From the IMG/VR virus record IMGVR_UViG_3300047551_000818, positions 1-34,933 of that record: 34,933 nucleotides of DNA; one strand, written 5' to 3'. This document shows positions 6,246 through 15,085 of this stretch, one piece after another; position 1 is the first letter of the stretch; every line of letters starts with the position of its first letter. The position numbers and the translations under genes are program-made. Origin of the DNA: a virus. Under the pieces are notes generated by a model. The model was not told the DNA's origin. It worked only from the letters and a program-made list of their open reading frames with translations, and made no database searches.

Positions 6246-7139
6246 TTATTTATGCTCGGCAATCCAGTCTTCAAGACGAACTTGTGCAGTCCATCCCAAA
6301 ACATCTGTAGCCTTTGACGAGTCTGCAAGACTGATTCTTGATTCGGCAAGACGAGGAGGAACAAAAACAGTTTCTCCACCCATGAGTTTTGCCACTTCAT
6401 TAATAGAGTAACTGCTGCCAGTACCTATGTTGTACACCTCTCCCCACGGAAGAGTTTTTGCGGTCGCTGCCAATATATTTGCGTTCACAACATCTCCAAC
6501 ATAAGTGAAATCACGCCGCTGTTCACCGTCACCCACAATTGTCATTGGTTCTCCTGCGGCTCTTTGACGCAAGAAAATACCAATAACGGGAGCATACTGT
6601 CCACGAATGGGCTGACGTTCACCATAGACATTGAAATATCTGAATGTCACGGTTTCCATTCCGTAAAGCCGTGCGTACATTTTGCAAATACTCTCTCCCG
6701 AAACCTTGCTTACTGAATACGGATTCAGGCAGTCTGTTGGTGCGGTTTCTAGTAGGGGTGGAGTGTTGGCAAGCCCATAAGCAGCCGATGTGGAGGAATA
6801 CACCACACGCTTTACGCCACACACCCGTGCACACTCAAGAACCGTAGCCGTGCCAATGATATTGTTCTCAAAAGCCTTCAGCGGGTCTTCAATACTTGGC
6901 TGTATACGAGCATCGGCAGCAAGATGAAACACCGCATCTTGTCCTTCGTACAGTTTGCGAACCATTGTGTAGTCGCGCACATCGTACTTGTAGTTCCGTG
7001 CGTGTTCGTTCCAATAGAACTGTTCGTTGGAATCTGCTGATTCGTTGTCAATCACTGTAACGGTGTGTCCATCCTCAATCAGACGATCTACAAGAGTGGA
7101 TCCAATGAATCCTGCTCCACCTGTTACAAGTGCTTTCAT
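6246..7139 (-). CDS. NAD-dependent sugar epimerase/dehydratase (extended SDR)
   Basis: 297 residues of the UDP-glucose 4-epimerase-like SDR family. The NAD-binding glycine motif TGGAGFIG is at 6-13, HLAAD near 72, SST at 115-117 and the catalytic YSVSK at 141-145. A later RYFNVYGERQP and GDGEQRRDFTYVGDV are typical of GalE/WbpP-type enzymes. It interconverts or tailors an NDP-sugar in the cytoplasm. Position at the end of the glycan cassette suggests it acts on a donor used by the flanking glycosyltransferases. The exact substrate cannot be read from sequence. Confidence 0.9.
   Translation of the reverse strand: MKALVTGGAGFIGSTLVDRLIEDGHTVTVIDNESADSNEQFYWNEHARNYKYDVRDYTMVRKLYEGQDAVFHLAADARIQPSIEDPLKAFENNIIGTATVLECARVCGVKRVVYSSTSAAYGLANTPPLLETAPTDCLNPYSVSKVSGESICKMYARLYGMETVTFRYFNVYGERQPIRGQYAPVIGIFLRQRAAGEPMTIVGDGEQRRDFTYVGDVVNANILAATAKTLPWGEVYNIGTGSSYSINEVAKLMGGETVFVPPRLAESRISLADSSKATDVLGWTAQVRLEDWIAEHK
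6247..6254 (-). promoter_or_regulatory. Late-promoter-like octamer (CATAAATA)
   Basis: One mismatch to TATAAATA, minus strand, 21 nt before the glycosyltransferase ATG at 6226. It sits over the epimerase stop codon. A GGAG site lies between it and the ATG. Confidence 0.45.
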
Positions 7140-7756: not shown

Positions 7757-8593
7757 TCACTCTTTAAACTTTCTACCCCACCAAGAGGCTAGCAATTTTG
7801 AATAATTCCAGTTGACGCTCATAATTCTATCGTACTCTGTATGTAGTTTATCTTCCGTAATCTCACTCCAATCGTCAACGAAAAGAATCGGGAGATCAGT
7901 GAAGTTTCGATGTGCAGCAAGTCTCTTGACCACAGGAATTGTTCGACAATAAAGAGACTCCCACAATCTATGGGTGTCTATGCCATTTCCTCTGGGGCAA
8001 ACACAAAATTTGTGGTCAACAAGTTCGTTCAAGTATCCATGTATATCCGCAAGATTGCTTGACTGTTTGGCAATGGTAGTACCCCTGCAAGACTCGGACA
8101 GGGACTTCATCTTTTCCAAAACTATTTCTCGTTCCGAAGGATAGGTTGAAGTTCTGAAGTTCACATACAACAATTTGGATCTGTTGTTTTTTGTATTCAG
8201 ATTCTTGAGATCGTTTGCTTTTGGAGTAGCAGGGCAGTACGGAGGTCCAAGACCTAATGGTATGGGAATAGCATCCTCCCGTTGGCTAGTTGTGTTTGAT
8301 CCAAAAACCCTTTTCACACACGACGGCTTCTTTGACATAAGAAAATCATCTAATTCGTAATCGCTATGTTGTGTGACCACGGAGATATTAGGACAACCAT
8401 CGGAGAGTAATGAAAAGAACTCTAGCAGGAAGTCTGTCTTGACAAACCAAACATCTCCCTCTTCAAGCACTCGGTCAAAAGACAAATCGTAGGCTGTTGG
8501 TCTGAATGACTTGTTGCAATATCGCTTGAACGCCATACCACTAACAGCATCATCGTAGATATCTTCAGAAAAATTTAATGAGGTAGAGTTCAT
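7757..8593 (-). CDS. Exostosin-like glycosyltransferase
   Basis: 278 residues from ATG 8593, which follows the previous stop directly (TGATTATG); a longer frame would run into the upstream gene. The C-terminal motif CPRGNGIDTHRLWES followed by GTIPVV-like sequence (RTIPVV) is the signature of exostosin/GT47-type transferases, which bind the nucleotide-sugar phosphate there. GLGPP and a YVNFRTSTYPSER segment precede it. It probably adds one residue of the phage-directed glycan. More AT-rich than the replication genes by eye, as is the whole cassette. Confidence 0.72.
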   Translation of the reverse strand: MNSTSLNFSEDIYDDAVSGMAFKRYCNKSFRPTAYDLSFDRVLEEGDVWFVKTDFLLEFFSLLSDGCPNISVVTQHSDYELDDFLMSKKPSCVKRVFGSNTTSQREDAIPIPLGLGPPYCPATPKANDLKNLNTKNNRSKLLYVNFRTSTYPSEREIVLEKMKSLSESCRGTTIAKQSSNLADIHGYLNELVDHKFCVCPRGNGIDTHRLWESLYCRTIPVVKRLAAHRNFTDLPILFVDDWSEITEDKLHTEYDRIMSVNWNYSKLLASWWGRKFKE

Positions 8594-8595
8594 AA

Positions 8596-9315
8596 TCAGT
8601 ATCGAACTAAAGACCAGTTTCCGTTTGGATTGATTTGTGGAGGCGTAGGAGTAGATGCGTGTACAAATCCACGGCGTGCATTCAAACACTGTGCAAGATG
8701 AACCACGGAACTGTCTATTCCGTGAAACTCTTCTGCTCCTTCTATAACACCACACCAATCAAGAAGATTGTTTGTCACCTTATCCACTGTAATCACACGC
8801 AATCCACGACTATCAACGACCATCTGTTGGAACTTTCCAACGGACGAAAGGTCGTGTACTACGATATACGGTTCAGATCCCAACGACAATTTCTGCCGAA
8901 GAGCCTCTTCACGATGAGGATTTCTCAAAATCTTGAATGAACTCCATCTTTCCGAAAAAGGCAAACCAATGGAATCGTAAAATGAAACATCCCAATCTGT
9001 TCTAGTTTTTTCAAATCCAGAACGGACAATTTTTCTTGCATGAGCAACCTGACTCAAATGCGGAACATCAGCATCAGACTGAACTGGAATACAGACTATC
9101 CGACAATCATCCATGTACATGGAACGGACAGTTTCAAAATTGTGCGCCTTGACTGGTAGAAACAGAAACTGAGGATTTTCTATCCTCAATACGCTTCTAA
9201 CCAAACCATTGCACACGATATGATCCCCCAACCCCATATGGTGATACACAAAAATTGTATCAAGAGCAAATCTGTACTGCTGCTGAAATGTCGTGTTATT
9301 GTGGTAGTTCATCAT
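8596..9315 (-). CDS. GT9/heptosyltransferase-like glycosyltransferase
   Basis: 239 residues; two adjacent ATG codons at 9315 and 9312 are both possible. The N-terminal HHMGLGDHIVCNGLVRS is the GLGDxI loop of GT9-like (heptosyltransferase) and related GT-B enzymes, and the C-terminal half has the donor-site pattern EGAEEFHGIDSSVVHLAQC. It is shorter than LPS heptosyltransferases (about 320-350). It starts inside the end of the HAD phosphatase gene (20-bp overlap). GT9 enzymes use ADP-heptose, which links it to the HldE-like kinase and nucleotidyltransferase in the same cassette; its true donor is unknown. Confidence 0.65.
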   Translation of the reverse strand: MMNYHNNTTFQQQYRFALDTIFVYHHMGLGDHIVCNGLVRSVLRIENPQFLFLPVKAHNFETVRSMYMDDCRIVCIPVQSDADVPHLSQVAHARKIVRSGFEKTRTDWDVSFYDSIGLPFSERWSSFKILRNPHREEALRQKLSLGSEPYIVVHDLSSVGKFQQMVVDSRGLRVITVDKVTNNLLDWCGVIEGAEEFHGIDSSVVHLAQCLNARRGFVHASTPTPPQINPNGNWSLVRY

Positions 9316-9640
9316 TGAAAAAATCTATGTCGTTTATTCCCTTGTCGTCAATATAAAAATCTGCATAGGGTTTTCCTAGAACCAAGCGATGGAATTTGGC
9401 TCCCCATCTAGTCAGTTGCTGTTTGGTGACTTCATAGCACTCTTCGTATGCTATCGCGGTATTGTCTTTAGATCGACCCATCCCTCTAGCAGTGAAATAG
9501 ATAATAGTATTTCCATCAGCGTAGAGTCGATTGATGTGTTCTATTCTGGTGGAATACGGTGTTGCAGTTGAATAATCGTAACCATGACCCTCGGTTTTGG
9601 TACAAATAGTTCCGTCTATATCAATAACATATGTCTTCAT
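9296..9640 (-). CDS. HAD-family sugar phosphatase-like protein
   Basis: 114 residues with a minimal HAD core: DIDGT at 7-11 (nucleophile and acid Asp), FTARG in the middle (motif II Thr), and LGKPYADFYIDDKG at the end (Lys and the metal-binding Asp pair). Such small HAD proteins sit in capsule/LPS clusters and next to HldE-type kinases, where GmhB removes the second phosphate of a sugar bisphosphate. The start is ATG 9640 with GGAGG 5 nt upstream; ATG 9643 is an in-frame alternative. The first ATGs overlap the transaldolase TGA. Confidence 0.75.
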   Translation of the reverse strand: MKTYVIDIDGTICTKTEGHGYDYSTATPYSTRIEHINRLYADGNTIIYFTARGMGRSKDNTAIAYEECYEVTKQQLTRWGAKFHRLVLGKPYADFYIDDKGINDIDFFNDELPQ

Positions 9641-10311
9641 CATCCCCTCCAAGCCTTAAAGTCTTCAAGGAACTTGTTTACCGAAGAAGTGGTCTGTGGG
9701 TGTTGTGCCATAGACTTGATCACAGATAGACTAGTTGTTGCTATGTTTGCTCCATTTTCCCATGAATCAGACACATCAAGAGCAGATCGGATACTTCCTG
9801 CAATAATCTTTGTGTCGTAATTGTTTTCGGTCAAGAAGCGAGTTGTTCGGTTCAAAACCTTGTTGGGATCGCCTCCAATGTCGCGCAGTCTTGCGTAGAA
9901 CAAAGAAACATACTTTGCTCCTGCTGCCGCAGCCATCTGCAATTGTTGCTCTGTGTAGCAGCAAGTACAATTTACCTTGACTCCCAAACAAGACACTTCC
10001 TTGATTACCTTGAGTTCGGTGACACCAACAGGAATTTTAATGTGGAGCATCTTGCATAGAGGAGAAAGAGTTTCATTCAAAGCCAAAGCCTGGTCAACCA
10101 TCTCATTCTTTTCTGTTGCAAAAATTTCAACACTCAAAGACAGGCGTTCCTTTCCACAGTACTCTGCCAAACGCTTGAGCAGAGAGTCAAAGTCACCTTT
10201 TGGTTCTTTGGAGATGATCGTCGGATTTGTTGTCACTCCACCAATCACGCCCATTTGGTTTGCTTCTACGATCTCATCAAGATTTGCAGTATCAATGAAC
10301 AGTTTTCTCAT
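9640..10311 (-). CDS. talC: TalC/FSA-type transaldolase
   Basis: 223 residues, the size of the small transaldolase/fructose-6-phosphate aldolase group. LFIDTAN at the N-terminus, GVTTNPTII near 25-33, the Schiff-base Lys92 in HIKIPV, and VSLFYARLRDIGGD later are diagnostic. It transfers a dihydroxyacetone unit between sugar phosphates and so links hexose and heptulose phosphates with the pentose phosphate pool. The start at ATG 10311 has GAGGAG 7 nt upstream. Cyanophages carry talC as a metabolic gene, but here it lies inside a sugar-nucleotide cassette, suggesting precursor supply. Confidence 0.9.
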   Translation of the reverse strand: MRKLFIDTANLDEIVEANQMGVIGGVTTNPTIISKEPKGDFDSLLKRLAEYCGKERLSLSVEIFATEKNEMVDQALALNETLSPLCKMLHIKIPVGVTELKVIKEVSCLGVKVNCTCCYTEQQLQMAAAAGAKYVSLFYARLRDIGGDPNKVLNRTTRFLTENNYDTKIIAGSIRSALDVSDSWENGANIATTSLSVIKSMAQHPQTTSSVNKFLEDFKAWRG

Positions 10312-10312
10312 G

Positions 10313-10723
10313 TCAGTTCTCCTCAAAGATGTACTTCGTACCGTCTTCAACAATGTTAGAGTCCAAATCATTATCCTTGTCCGACCATTCAATAATAATG
10401 GTGTCCTCTAAAGCCATTCTCATGTGCATCAAACCCTTCGGGATATGGATTGTGTCTCCTGCCGAAAGTATTACAGACTGGTTCTTTGCTCTTCCTATTC
10501 TCATACCAACCTTCAATTTTCCTGAAAGAACATAGTACCACTCTTCTTTTTCAACATGGTACTCCATGCTGCTCTGTGTGCCCTTACGCATAAAAATATG
10601 CTTGAGAACAAACTTATCATTTGCCTCAATAGTTGTGATGCTCCCCCAATACTTTTCAAGGGTTGAAATTGGTTTCTGTACGGGAGGTAATTCTTGTCTT
10701 CCGAATTTTGGTTCATTGCCCAT
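10313..10723 (-). CDS. Cupin protein, mannose-6-phosphate isomerase type II-like
   Basis: 136 residues from ATG 10723 (AAGGAA 7 nt upstream). A single cupin barrel: MEYHVEKEEWYYVLSGKLKV gives motif 1 (His and Glu metal ligands) and AGDTIHIPKGLMHM motif 2. It resembles the C-terminal cupin domain of type II phosphomannose isomerases and sugar-modifying cupins such as WxcM. A role as isomerase or epimerase on a sugar phosphate is plausible in this cassette. The final IIEWSDKDNDLDSN stretch matches the end of that domain. Confidence 0.75.
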   Translation of the reverse strand: MGNEPKFGRQELPPVQKPISTLEKYWGSITTIEANDKFVLKHIFMRKGTQSSMEYHVEKEEWYYVLSGKLKVGMRIGRAKNQSVILSAGDTIHIPKGLMHMRMALEDTIIIEWSDKDNDLDSNIVEDGTKYIFEEN

Positions 10724-11402
10724 AGTATTTGTTCCTTCCGTTCTTTCTTTCAAAGTGTTTCTTGAACAAGAGCATAGATTCGTCTTGAGTTTGACAAACA
10801 CCCAATAGTTTAGTGTAGAAAGCCATTTCAGCAATCTCTTCAAGAACAATCGCTGCTTCCAAAGCCCTCTTTGGTGAATCAGAGAAAGTCAAACATCCGT
10901 GAAACGGTATAAGTATAGCAGGACAACACACAGGGTTCAAGTCTCGTTCAGAGAAATAGCGCACAATTGTTCGTCCAAGACTGTTTTCGTAGTCGTCCAA
11001 GTCACTGTCAAGAAGTGGATCACAGATTGGCACAAAGCCATCAAAATAATCTGCATGAGTAGTGCCCAATAGTGGTATTGGTTTGTTTGCTTGTGCCCAT
11101 GCAGTAGCAAATTTTGAGTGGGTGTGTATTACAGACTGTATCTGTGGGAAAGCGCGATACATCTGAAGATGAATTTGTTGGTCTACTGATGGCTTTTTTC
11201 CAGACATCAAAGTGCCATCAATAACACGCACAACCGAAACATCATCAGTAGTCAGGCTTTCAAAAGGAATACCGGAAGGCTTAATAGCCACAAATTTGCC
11301 GCATTGTGACAGAACACTGGCATTACCCCATGTAAGTTTAACCAATCCATTAAGAGGCAAAGCCTTGTTTAGTTCAACGCAGCAAGACAAAGAATCATTC
11401 AC
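10713..11402 (-). CDS. L-ribulose-5-phosphate 4-epimerase-like protein (AraD family, class II aldolase fold)
   Basis: 229 residues, the usual AraD length. TWGNAS at 24-29, KPSG at 41-44, the zinc site HTHS at 93-96, TTHADYF after it, a further His in the FHGC stretch, and the characteristic C-terminal KYYGQ all match AraD rather than fuculose aldolase. AraD interconverts L-ribulose 5-phosphate and D-xylulose 5-phosphate by retro-aldol chemistry. The start is GTG 11402 with AAGGAG about 10 nt upstream. It overlaps the kinase and cupin genes by a few bases, so these genes are co-translated. Confidence 0.87.
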   Translation of the reverse strand: MNDSLSCCVELNKALPLNGLVKLTWGNASVLSQCGKFVAIKPSGIPFESLTTDDVSVVRVIDGTLMSGKKPSVDQQIHLQMYRAFPQIQSVIHTHSKFATAWAQANKPIPLLGTTHADYFDGFVPICDPLLDSDLDDYENSLGRTIVRYFSERDLNPVCCPAILIPFHGCLTFSDSPKRALEAAIVLEEIAEMAFYTKLLGVCQTQDESMLLFKKHFERKNGRNKYYGQ

Positions 11403-12225
11403 GATTGATCATCTCCTTCAATGAACACGGTGTGCGATCTGTAAGAGAAAGGTACAAAGAAGCAAATCGGTTTGCAAACTCTCCGTTCTCCGTGCAGACA
11501 TAAGCAGCACAGAAAGCATCGCCTGCACCGATTACATTTTCTGTCCGAACGGGAAATCCTTTGTGTTCAGTCACAGTACCGTCAGCCAATACAGTTCTAC
11601 TCCCTCGTTCTGCTAGTGTAACCACAGCAGTAGGAAAGCAAACATTGCAGCACGAACTTTCTTTCTCATTCATAATAGCGCAATCAAACCCCACATACCT
11701 GTTCATGTTTGATCCACGATCAGACATTTGAGATGACACGAATTTAGTACCTTCAAATGCCATACAGTTCTTAACAAGGGAATCAGTGACAAAACCACAC
11801 CGATAGTCACACAACAAAATTGCATCATATTCACCTACACAAATATCTTCGTGTGAAATTCCTGCGTTTCCACAGTCATTAATCTGAAGGTATTTGTAGG
11901 TTGAGCCTCCACGCGAAACCCAATATCTGCATTTTATGTTATCTCTTCCGTTTGCACAAGAAATAGTTTCAACCCCAAAGTCTTGATCTAGAGACTGAAT
12001 CAAATCAGAATCAGATAGTGCAGTCATAAAGGTGCATTTACAACCAAGCAAACCTATTAATTTTGCAACATTAGCGGCTCCACCAAGAGACTTGGTGTCA
12101 TGCAAAAAATTTGTCTTTAGTGTGGGTGACTCCAAAGATAAACCAACAGCGTCAAGGAATATGTCCTTGTCAATTATTGTGTCACCAACAACAAGCACTC
12201 GTTTGTTCTTTAAGTTTTGTCGCAA
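11395..12225 (-). CDS. PfkB-family sugar kinase resembling the HldE kinase domain
   Basis: 276 residues. RVLVVGDTIIDKD at 9-21, SLGGAANVAKL near 47-56 and the catalytic GAGDAF at 233-238 define a PfkB/ribokinase-type kinase. The spacing and the GGAAN motif are closest to the N-terminal kinase domain of HldE (RfaE), which phosphorylates C1 of heptose 7-phosphate. The nucleotidyltransferase half of HldE is missing here and is instead fused to the isomerase gene just upstream. The start is TTG 12225 with AAGGA 8 nt upstream; it overlaps that gene by 16 bp. Confidence 0.85.
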   Translation of the reverse strand: MRQNLKNKRVLVVGDTIIDKDIFLDAVGLSLESPTLKTNFLHDTKSLGGAANVAKLIGLLGCKCTFMTALSDSDLIQSLDQDFGVETISCANGRDNIKCRYWVSRGGSTYKYLQINDCGNAGISHEDICVGEYDAILLCDYRCGFVTDSLVKNCMAFEGTKFVSSQMSDRGSNMNRYVGFDCAIMNEKESSCCNVCFPTAVVTLAERGSRTVLADGTVTEHKGFPVRTENVIGAGDAFCAAYVCTENGEFANRFASLYLSLTDRTPCSLKEMINRE

Positions 12226-13070
12226 GTAGAAAGTCCTTGTATTTTCTTCATCACATTGGTAGTGGAGTACTCTCCCACCAATGGGTACACCTTGACTTCT
12301 ATTCTGCTCGGGATTTCGTCTCGCTGACGAACTTCATCTGCGGTCCACTCCGAACCCTTGACAATCACATCAGGACACAGATCATCATACATGGATTTCA
12401 ACTCTTCTGCTGTATTGAAAATAAGAACTTCATCCACATAAGAAATTGCTTCAAGAAGTCTCTTTCTATCAGTTTCTGAATTGACAGGACGATTTTCACC
12501 CTTCAATTTGCGAACCCGTTCGTCAGAGTCTATAGCAACGATGAGTCTATCTCCTTGTGTTTTTGAAAACTTCAACAATTCTATGTGACCCTTATGGAGA
12601 ACATCAAAAACTCCGTTAGTCATAACCAATCCATGATGAGTGTCAATTCTTTCTACTCTCTTTACATGACGCCTTTCTCCCCACTCATTGTTTAGCCACA
12701 TACGGCTCATGGCAATCATGTCTTCGATATTTGATATCCATGATCCCATACACAGAACATTTGAATTGTTATGTTCTCTTGATTTCACAGCAGTTAGTTC
12801 GTTGTGTGCCAAAACAGCACGCACTCCGTGTATTCGATTTGCAACTATGCTCATCCCAACGCCTGTTCCGCAAATCAATATCCCGCGATCTGCCTCTTTA
12901 TTTGAGATGATTGTTGAAAGTTGTGAGGCATAATCCACGTAATCAACACTGCTTCTAGAGTCATATGGTCCCAAGTCTACAACCGAGTAACCACACTCTT
13001 TTAGGTGTTGTTTTAGTTCTTTCTTTGCATCGACTCCGTTGTGATCAGCAGCAATAACGATTGAAGTCAT
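12210..13070 (-). CDS. Fusion of RpiB-type isomerase and HldE/RfaE C-terminal-type nucleotidyltransferase
   Basis: 286 residues with two domains. Residues 1-130 are RpiB/LacAB-like: AADHNG at 7-12, VDYVDYA, Cys67 in CGTGVGMS and His100 in EHNNSN, the same 33-residue spacing as the catalytic Cys and His of RpiB. Residues 147-286 are a cytidylyltransferase-like domain: TNGVFD at 151-156, HKGH at 159-162, RPVN at 194-197, VKGSEW and a C-terminal STTN, as in the HldE nucleotidyltransferase half. The first half would isomerise an aldose/ketose 5-phosphate and the second would attach a nucleotide to a sugar 1-phosphate. No frameshift is visible at the junction. Confidence 0.9.
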   Translation of the reverse strand: MTSIVIAADHNGVDAKKELKQHLKECGYSVVDLGPYDSRSSVDYVDYASQLSTIISNKEADRGILICGTGVGMSIVANRIHGVRAVLAHNELTAVKSREHNNSNVLCMGSWISNIEDMIAMSRMWLNNEWGERRHVKRVERIDTHHGLVMTNGVFDVLHKGHIELLKFSKTQGDRLIVAIDSDERVRKLKGENRPVNSETDRKRLLEAISYVDEVLIFNTAEELKSMYDDLCPDVIVKGSEWTADEVRQRDEIPSRIEVKVYPLVGEYSTTNVMKKIQGLSTCDKT

Positions 13071-13761: not shown

Positions 13762-14400
13762 TCAATCCTGTGGAACTAAAGAAGTAGTCGTACTAGAGTT
13801 GTAAATGTAACCGTGCAGAGCATCCTGAATGTGATACTCGGTTTGTACTTTTGGATATAGTCGCAACAGCCAGTCAATGTCCTCTGCATAAGACTGACCA
13901 TTTTCACCGATCATTAGATTAAACTGTTCACTCTGTGCAATTTCGCGCCGCCAAACGCACATATGATACGGAGGACGCTTTATGTCACCAAGGAAACCGT
14001 CCTCGTCGCGCCACAAGTGACCGTGAGGATTACCGATACCGAACTCTACATTCATGGGTTCACCGTTGATGCTGCACCACTGGTTGAACGAGATACAGTC
14101 AACTCCATCGTACTCGTCAATGGCTGTGAGGATCTTACTCATGTACTCCTTGCTAACCGCATCATCGTCGTCCAAGAACGCAATATACTTGCCACGGGCT
14201 GCGCGGAGAAGATCATTACGCTTTTCTGAAATACTCTTGGAACGGTTGTCCAGTAGAACAAGAATCTCTACTGCCTTGCCTTGACCTGTTGCGTCCGCTT
14301 GCTCCTGCAACTGCTTCATTGCTGCCATGAGCGATTCATTACGAGACGGAATAGACAGGATCAGAACACTAAACTTGATTTCACTTGCTGGCACTGGCAT
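13762..14400 (-). CDS. Family 2 glycosyltransferase
   Basis: 212 residues from ATG 14400, chosen for the GGAGGAA site 7 nt before it; it overlaps the upstream gene by 20 bp. FSVLILSIPSRNE opens the GT-A fold, EKRNDLLRAARGKYIAFLDDDD gives the donor-binding region with the DxD (LDDDD near residue 85), and EDIDWLLRLYPK near the end is the usual catalytic-base region of GT2 enzymes. A single domain without membrane helices. Confidence 0.85.
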   Translation of the reverse strand: MPVPASEIKFSVLILSIPSRNESLMAAMKQLQEQADATGQGKAVEILVLLDNRSKSISEKRNDLLRAARGKYIAFLDDDDAVSKEYMSKILTAIDEYDGVDCISFNQWCSINGEPMNVEFGIGNPHGHLWRDEDGFLGDIKRPPYHMCVWRREIAQSEQFNLMIGENGQSYAEDIDWLLRLYPKVQTEYHIQDALHGYIYNSSTTTSLVPQD

Positions 14401-15085
14401 TGAACATTTCCTCCATGTCGAAATTACGTTCCTTGCGACGCTTGTACACTTCACCGTCCACACCGTACATTTCTGCGTTCTCGTTACGGGCGTGGAGGGT
14501 ATCCCACGGCTCACTCGTCCACTGGTGCTGAATAATGCAGATGTCACAACGGCGCAGTTTGCCCAGTGCTGCACATACCTGGGTCTGCTCGTTGTCGCAG
14601 TACAGGGACTTGTATTCTGGATTGTAAATGTATCCAAACTTCTTGTACAGCGGGAACCCCATGACCGTAAGGGTCATCAGGGGATCTTCCTTTGGACGCA
14701 GCCCGTCCCAAAACTTGATTGCTCCGTCAAAGTCAGGAAATGACTGTTCAAATGCGGCAAAGATGTAGTCATCGTAGCCCATGACCACAGGAACCATGTC
14801 GTCCGAGGCTAGCATGAGAACATCGCCGTCTTCTCCTTCAAGGTTCGCGTTGCACGCCTCAATCTTGCTCTTGGAATGCCCGTAGCACCACCTGATGTTC
14901 GCGTTCATGGCACGGGTAGTAAGCCACTCTTCCATTTGCGGATTGTTCATGGTGGGATCGTCCAAATCCATGCTGACCACAAAACGCACATCGTGCCGTC
15001 CACCAAGGAAGGTCAGGTATCGACTGAATACAGACTTAAATTTTTCGGGACGGTTACGAGTAGGGAACTTGATCACTAGTTTCAT
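14381..15085 (-). CDS. GT2-like glycosyltransferase
   Basis: 234 residues from ATG 15085 (GGAG 6 nt upstream). MKLVIKFPTRNRPEKF is the start of a GT-A domain, SMDLDDPTM carries the first Asp cluster, and LMLASDDMVPV the DxD-like SDD. An HQWTSEPWDTLH stretch near the C-terminus could be the acceptor side. Proteins of this kind are common in T4-like marine phages, usually annotated only as glycosyltransferase or hypothetical. Confidence 0.7.
   Translation of the reverse strand: MKLVIKFPTRNRPEKFKSVFSRYLTFLGGRHDVRFVVSMDLDDPTMNNPQMEEWLTTRAMNANIRWCYGHSKSKIEACNANLEGEDGDVLMLASDDMVPVVMGYDDYIFAAFEQSFPDFDGAIKFWDGLRPKEDPLMTLTVMGFPLYKKFGYIYNPEYKSLYCDNEQTQVCAALGKLRRCDICIIQHQWTSEPWDTLHARNENAEMYGVDGEVYKRRKERNFDMEEMFNASASK

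Follow-up and report, generated by a model that had tools for sequence, protein, structure and literature searches.

Among the closest described counterparts of the enzyme reported here is HldE (RfaE), in which a heptose-7-phosphate kinase and a heptose-1-phosphate adenylyltransferase, also two steps of a nucleotide-sugar route, are fused. Cyanophage NDP-sugar cassettes containing a PfkB kinase, a HIGH-type nucleotidyltransferase, a cupin and a HAD phosphatase have already been described (PMC7824862), and phage sugar cassettes are widespread, with few assigned a product. The window analyzed here is a viral fragment of 34,933 bases from IMG/VR with a T4-like gene content (judged by eye). It carries a gene for a 286-residue protein (positions 12210–13070 on the minus strand, as are the operon and sugar genes of the window given below) that combines an RpiB/LacAB-type isomerase domain and an HldE2/TagD-type nucleotidyltransferase domain in one frame. 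In contrast to HldE, the nucleotidyltransferase is joined to an isomerase and the kinase lies on its own gene. The general kind of system, a phage NDP-sugar cassette, is thus known, whereas for an RpiB-nucleotidyltransferase fusion we found no description in the open-access literature.

The original prediction that an RpiB-like isomerase and an HldE-type nucleotidyltransferase share one chain was borne out by Pfam, NCBIfam and the single open frame. The isomerase domain (residues 4–142, positions 12645–13061) matches LacAB_rpiB (PF02502) with an E-value of 2e-47 and 161 bits against a cut-off of 24.7, and it scores 140 bits with the NCBIfam RpiB model TIGR01120, above the curated cut-off of 138.65. 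A linker of residues 143–149 (12624–12644), defined as the gap between the two Pfam matches, leads to the nucleotidyltransferase domain (residues 150–282, positions 12225–12623), which matches CTP_transf_like (PF01467; E 7e-18, 65.6 bits against 21). Because its score of 126 bits with rfaE_dom_II (TIGR02199) is below the cut-off of 181.5, this domain is HldE2-like rather than a certified HldE2, with the caveat that a cyanophage nucleotidyltransferase (106 bits) and one from a second cassette on viral contig L028 (164 bits) likewise fall under that cut-off. An AlphaFold2 model of the fusion (mean pLDDT 83, pTM 0.50) matches RpiB structures over its first half and HldC/TagD-type nucleotidyltransferases over its second, with pLDDT below 50 at residues 134–144, a stretch that takes in the end of the isomerase domain. 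A search of viral structures returned no full-length two-domain match.

In IMG/VR, a gapped DNA pattern running from the EHN motif of RpiB to the HxGH motif of the nucleotidyltransferase retrieved 53 loci, each of which has the two domains in a single open frame; a second scan using the isomerase domain added 3 further viral contigs with the fusion. The linkers of fused homologues differ in length solely by multiples of three. An assembly chimera or frameshift at the junction is ruled out by these independent contigs and in-frame linkers, and the fusion is genuine and recurrent rather than a one-off, being present as a single open frame in 3 bacterial genomes and, besides the window, in at least 56 viral contigs. 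Several of the contigs are near-duplicates; clustering the full-length set, which includes the window, at 90% identity leaves 32 representatives, and the lowest pairwise identity among full-length fusions is about 47%. A single-protein search of viral contigs gave just one partial relative, and among GenBank phages and plasmids no relative covering 80% of the fusion query was found. Relatives of the window's capsid-protein gene occur on 9 of 47 fusion-bearing contigs. The bacterial carriers are two Acidobacteria (L056 and L087) and a Pelagibacteraceae single-cell genome (L057). At E<=1e-40 the fusion was detected in 1 of 396 genomes sampled from the phylum of L087 and in 1 of 397 sampled from the order of L057, in each case the source genome itself. 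It is rare in both samples, and overall its recurrence in viruses contrasts with its rarity in bacteria. In a tree built from 36 fusion sequences, bacterial copies are interspersed among viral ones, and the well-supported branches require a minimum of two changes. Median dN/dS in 57 close pairs was 0.04 for the isomerase and 0.12 for the nucleotidyltransferase domain, and the fusion is under purifying selection.

The fusion (F) is followed in the window by genes for an HldE domain-I-like PfkB kinase (K, 11395–12225; 59 bits, Pfam/NCBIfam), an AraD-type class II epimerase/aldolase (A, 10713–11402; Pfam/NCBIfam), a MannoseP_isomer-like cupin (C, ORF as listed 10313–10849, domain at residues 59–170), a TalC-type transaldolase (T, 9640–10392) and a HAD phosphatase (H, 9296–9652; phrog_1238, DxDGT motif). 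That the kinase would be a separate gene had been predicted correctly; its ORF overlaps the fusion. Of the 49 fused loci that have 4 kb or more of downstream sequence, the order is FKACTH in 30, FKACT in 6, FKCTH in 5, HFAKCT in 4, HFKACT in 2, and FAKCT and FA in 1 each, and 48 of the 49 keep kinase, cupin and transaldolase together. The Pelagibacter order is TFKCAH, and one Acidobacterium has FKCTH. AraD may be a non-essential step, since the operon lacks it at some loci (those with FKCTH, and L087, which has an AraD homologue elsewhere in its genome). Where present, it retains its metal ligands and the equivalents of Asp120 and Tyr229 of L-ribulose-5-phosphate 4-epimerase, which we take to be marks of 4-epimerases (38–39 of 39 homologues for metal and epimerase residues). 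The transaldolase has the Schiff-base Lys together with Glu and Phe, the residues that separate transaldolase from fructose-6-phosphate aldolase (32 of 32), and the phosphatases keep the catalytic Asp. Sigma-70-like promoter matches in the operon region were at chance level. Around these genes lie an ORF directly after the phosphatase that by eye is possibly a divergent glycosyltransferase (8596–9315; no Pfam match), an exostosin-type (GT47) glycosyltransferase (7757–8758; Pfam) and, upstream, a GT2-type glycosyltransferase (ORF as listed 13762–14637, domain in the C-terminal part). GT9 (heptosyltransferase-family) genes adjoin the operon in L057, L235 and the L008/L013/L014/L020/L021 group. 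The bacterial cupins (L056:2707-3507, L057:8383-9156 and L087:5836-6729; 257–297 residues) are longer than the viral ones and by eye appear to contain two cupin domains.

With RpiB (PDB 3he8 and 2vvr) the isomerase domain shares the fold and the catalytic set Cys67, Thr69, His100, Asn101, Asp9, His10, Arg134 and Arg138; Tyr44 is also conserved. Cys67, His100 and Asn101 are present in 36 of 36 fusions and Thr69 in 34 (Ser in 2), and the catalytic Cys, Thr, His and Asn are kept in all 53 fused proteins of the second viral scan. The domain differs from RpiB in its attached nucleotidyltransferase, in an invariant Asn11 and Pro35 and in Trp111 (codon 12738–12740). Two of the three phosphate-binding arginines of RpiB (113, 137 and 141 in trypanosomatid numbering) are retained as Arg134 and Arg138, and the third is Trp111. 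An alignment of the 36 fusions with 33 bacterial RpiBs shows Asn11, Pro35 and Trp111 in every fusion, whereas the RpiBs have Arg or Lys at position 111 (32 of 33), Ala or Gly at 11 and mostly Thr at 35. In RpiB the Arg113 position stabilizes the phosphate (PMC4882579); this position is also the sole site difference reported between the active sites of MtRpiB and LacAB (PMC3755991). LacAB galactose-6-phosphate isomerase (PDB 4lfk), of the same superfamily, also has no Arg113-type phosphate contact (PMC3755991), but it is a heteromer that uses Arg39 of LacB instead, and its sequence similarity to the fusion is low. The best LacA/LacB equivalog score is 93 bits against a cut-off of 234, and Pfam annotation of the operon gave no second LacAB-type subunit. 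Because the third phosphate-binding arginine is replaced by Trp in every fusion examined, ribose-5-phosphate is doubtful as the substrate. The domain, although RpiB-like, is probably something other than a ribose-5-phosphate isomerase, and while Cys67 and His100 had been identified correctly, the earlier label RpiB was to this extent overstated.

Transaldolases of phages have a known role in the pentose phosphate pathway, and the domain could in principle be a plain ribose-5-phosphate isomerase that boosts this pathway in the host for nucleotide synthesis, with the nucleotidyltransferase fused accidentally. The RpiB model score over the cut-off and the intact catalytic residues agree with such a role. 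We nevertheless regard it as highly improbable, given that the phosphate arginine is lost specifically in this subfamily and that the gene is strictly linked, within the operon, to sugar genes and those of the kinase and phosphatase. Trp111 was present in 53 of 53 fused proteins of the second viral scan, whereas the other viral RpiBs had Arg there (26 of 26) and had operon genes nearby in none of the 26 cases. Contig L235 encodes an unfused RpiB with Asn11, Pro35 and Trp111 that adjoins an AraD-type gene, kinase, transaldolase and cupin, so that this signature tracks the pathway and not merely the fusion. A fusion-type nucleotidyltransferase was not found on the L235 fragment, where the sole nucleotidyltransferase found belongs to a separate HAD-nucleotidyltransferase-kinase cassette. 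An ORF with a Cys-rich motif (L235:6438-7169), radical-SAM-like by eye and with no Pfam match, also adjoins the unfused operon.

The retained 4-epimerase residues of AraD and the RpiB fold of the isomerase would suit a pentose route with near-standard chemistry for each enzyme. AraD would convert D-xylulose-5-phosphate to L-ribulose-5-phosphate, the N-terminal domain would form an L-aldopentose-5-phosphate, and activation through the 1,5-bisphosphate and 1-phosphate would give an NDP-L-pentose, the transaldolase merely feeding the pentose phosphate pool. This scheme appears unlikely to us, as it sits poorly with the Trp at the third phosphate site in all fusions, with the loci that have no AraD and with a kinase and nucleotidyltransferase that are closest to heptose enzymes. 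DNA-modification pathways (RB69 arabinosyl-hmC and the Thanatos pentose) were also considered, and no link to the operon was found; the RB69 candidates include a KdsD-like sugar-isomerase protein.

The nucleotidyltransferase domain keeps the NGxFD and HxGH motifs, the latter at residues 159–162 as had been predicted (H159-K-G-H162, with H159xGH162 in 36 of 36 fusions). HldE/RfaE and HldC (PDB 5xf2) are the nearest family of both this domain and the neighboring kinase, but both proteins score below threshold, and the fusions have Glu241 and R248-x-R-D251 at positions that in stand-alone HldE2-like proteins are Asp (76 of 78) and mostly Val-Gly. The window kinase has the motif LSLESPTLK, and operon kinases generally have LSLESPT-type motifs (catalytic Asp in 45 of 45), where the second, heptose-type cassettes described next mostly have xPEAPVP. 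At the level of sequence, these differences in bit score and motif indicate divergence from the heptose enzymes and are not proof of a different product.

Viral contigs L028, L034 and L043 carry, beside the fusion operon, a second nucleotidyltransferase-kinase-cupin cassette. With the HldE domain models the second cassette of L028 scores 164 and 140 bits, compared with 70 bits for the kinase of its first cassette and 126 bits for the window nucleotidyltransferase. Because three viruses carry both cassettes, the product of the fusion operon probably differs from ADP-manno-heptose, and their coexistence suggests two products. This bears on the proposal that the isomerase replaces GmhA, converting sedoheptulose-7-phosphate to D-glycero-D-manno-heptose-7-phosphate, and that the operon makes ordinary ADP-heptose. 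Such a route would be served by the HldE-like kinase and nucleotidyltransferase, by a transaldolase able to supply sedoheptulose-7-phosphate and by the GT9 genes at several loci. We consider it quite improbable in view of the more HldE-like cassette in the same viruses, a counterpart of which occurs with an HldD-like epimerase in cyanophages P-SSM2 and P-TIM68. In addition, no HldD-like gene was recognized in the window, whose NAD-dependent sugar epimerase/dehydratase (6246–7139) is GalE/LegB-like, and the nucleotidyltransferase and kinase motifs are unlike those of heptose enzymes. The HldE-like character given in the original prediction stands with the qualification that the product is probably something other than ordinary ADP-heptose.

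The cassette of T4-like cyanophages P-SSM2, S-SSM7 and P-TIM68, outlined in PMC7824862, resembles the fusion operon in clustering a nucleotidyltransferase, PfkB kinase, HAD phosphatase and cupin among epimerases and glycosyltransferases. It differs in that the nucleotidyltransferase is unfused, an HldD-like epimerase is present in P-SSM2 and P-TIM68, and no RpiB, AraD or transaldolase is annotated in the cassette stretches. The cyanophage genes labeled phosphoheptose isomerase (L147:10101-10445, L144:11082-11417, L145:9745-10083 and L146:11958-12308) have an early DxD motif and resemble the HAD phosphatase rather than a SIS-domain isomerase; the same label is attached to phrog_1238. The heptose-type cassettes at L147:8989-11587 and L145:7465-10083 comprise an HldE-like kinase and nucleotidyltransferase, HAD phosphatase, HldD-like epimerase and cupin, with no annotated GmhA apart from the mislabeled phosphatase, and their cupin could be a GmhA replacement. 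This cupin (L147:10426-10782, L145:9314-9745) is annotated as a putative nucleotidyltransferase, which its Pfam cupin match contradicts, or as cysteine dioxygenase, which is unsupported here.

The fusion and its shared six-gene operon, found across dozens of viruses and a few bacteria, point to a virus-borne pathway to an activated sugar. We favor the reading, at a probability of roughly 0.6, that the fusion is bifunctional and belongs to a dedicated operon, carried by viruses, that makes one such sugar. Its two domains most likely perform isomerization and nucleotidylation in a single NDP-sugar route, and the operon content backs the earlier proposal that early and late steps reside on one chain. 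As also proposed earlier, this arrangement might channel intermediates or maintain stoichiometry. The reactions and the sequence in which they occur are inferred, as are the cupin's role and the product. The transaldolase, with host transketolase, would draw a ketose phosphate from the pentose phosphate pathway, and the AraD-type enzyme would set its stereochemistry. The N-terminal isomerase would then form the aldose phosphate, the separate PfkB kinase would phosphorylate C1, the HAD phosphatase would remove the terminal phosphate, and the C-terminal domain would transfer a nucleotide to the sugar-1-phosphate. The scheme leaves the cupin without a step, which weighs against it. Neighboring glycosyltransferases may pass the sugar to a surface glycan of host or virion.

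If the operon is dedicated in this way, the product is tentatively a heptose stereoisomer derived from sedoheptulose-7-phosphate, favored by the loss of the phosphate arginine, by the transaldolase and the HldE-like enzymes, and by the GT9 genes that adjoin several copies. A hexose or higher sugar is a possible second choice, and a pentose via L-ribulose-5-phosphate, favored by AraD and the RpiB fold, is rather unlikely. A longer-chain product that uses every enzyme is possible, and we have entertained, as a speculative proposal of low probability, a new NDP-sugar pathway whose product is a rare or higher sugar. The re-specialized isomerase and AraD would together yield an unusual sugar phosphate, either an aldose or a ketose, and the transaldolase would set its carbon chain or extend it, as far as an octulose phosphate. 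The cupin would then isomerize the sugar, and kinase, phosphatase and nucleotidyltransferase would activate it. Were this so, viruses would be equipped to synthesize a sugar that cells rarely make.

For the favored dedicated operon, the nearly constant company of the same enzymes and the Trp111 marker make the product testable using purified enzymes. Trp111 is a one-residue marker that separates members of the pathway from ordinary RpiBs and by which the pathway can be followed through metagenomes. The automatic labels RpiB, ADP-heptose synthase, phosphoheptose isomerase and cysteine dioxygenase are likely to mislead for genes of this operon. The region upstream of the Pelagibacter operon (L057:668-4981) encodes a GmhA-like SIS isomerase together with proteins that by eye resemble KdsB and HpcH, and it may represent a second rare-sugar pathway. 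Elsewhere in the window, an ORF at positions 769–1488 contains a repeated WxERNRERKxAxTKA unit followed by a C-terminal part that is HNH-like by eye.
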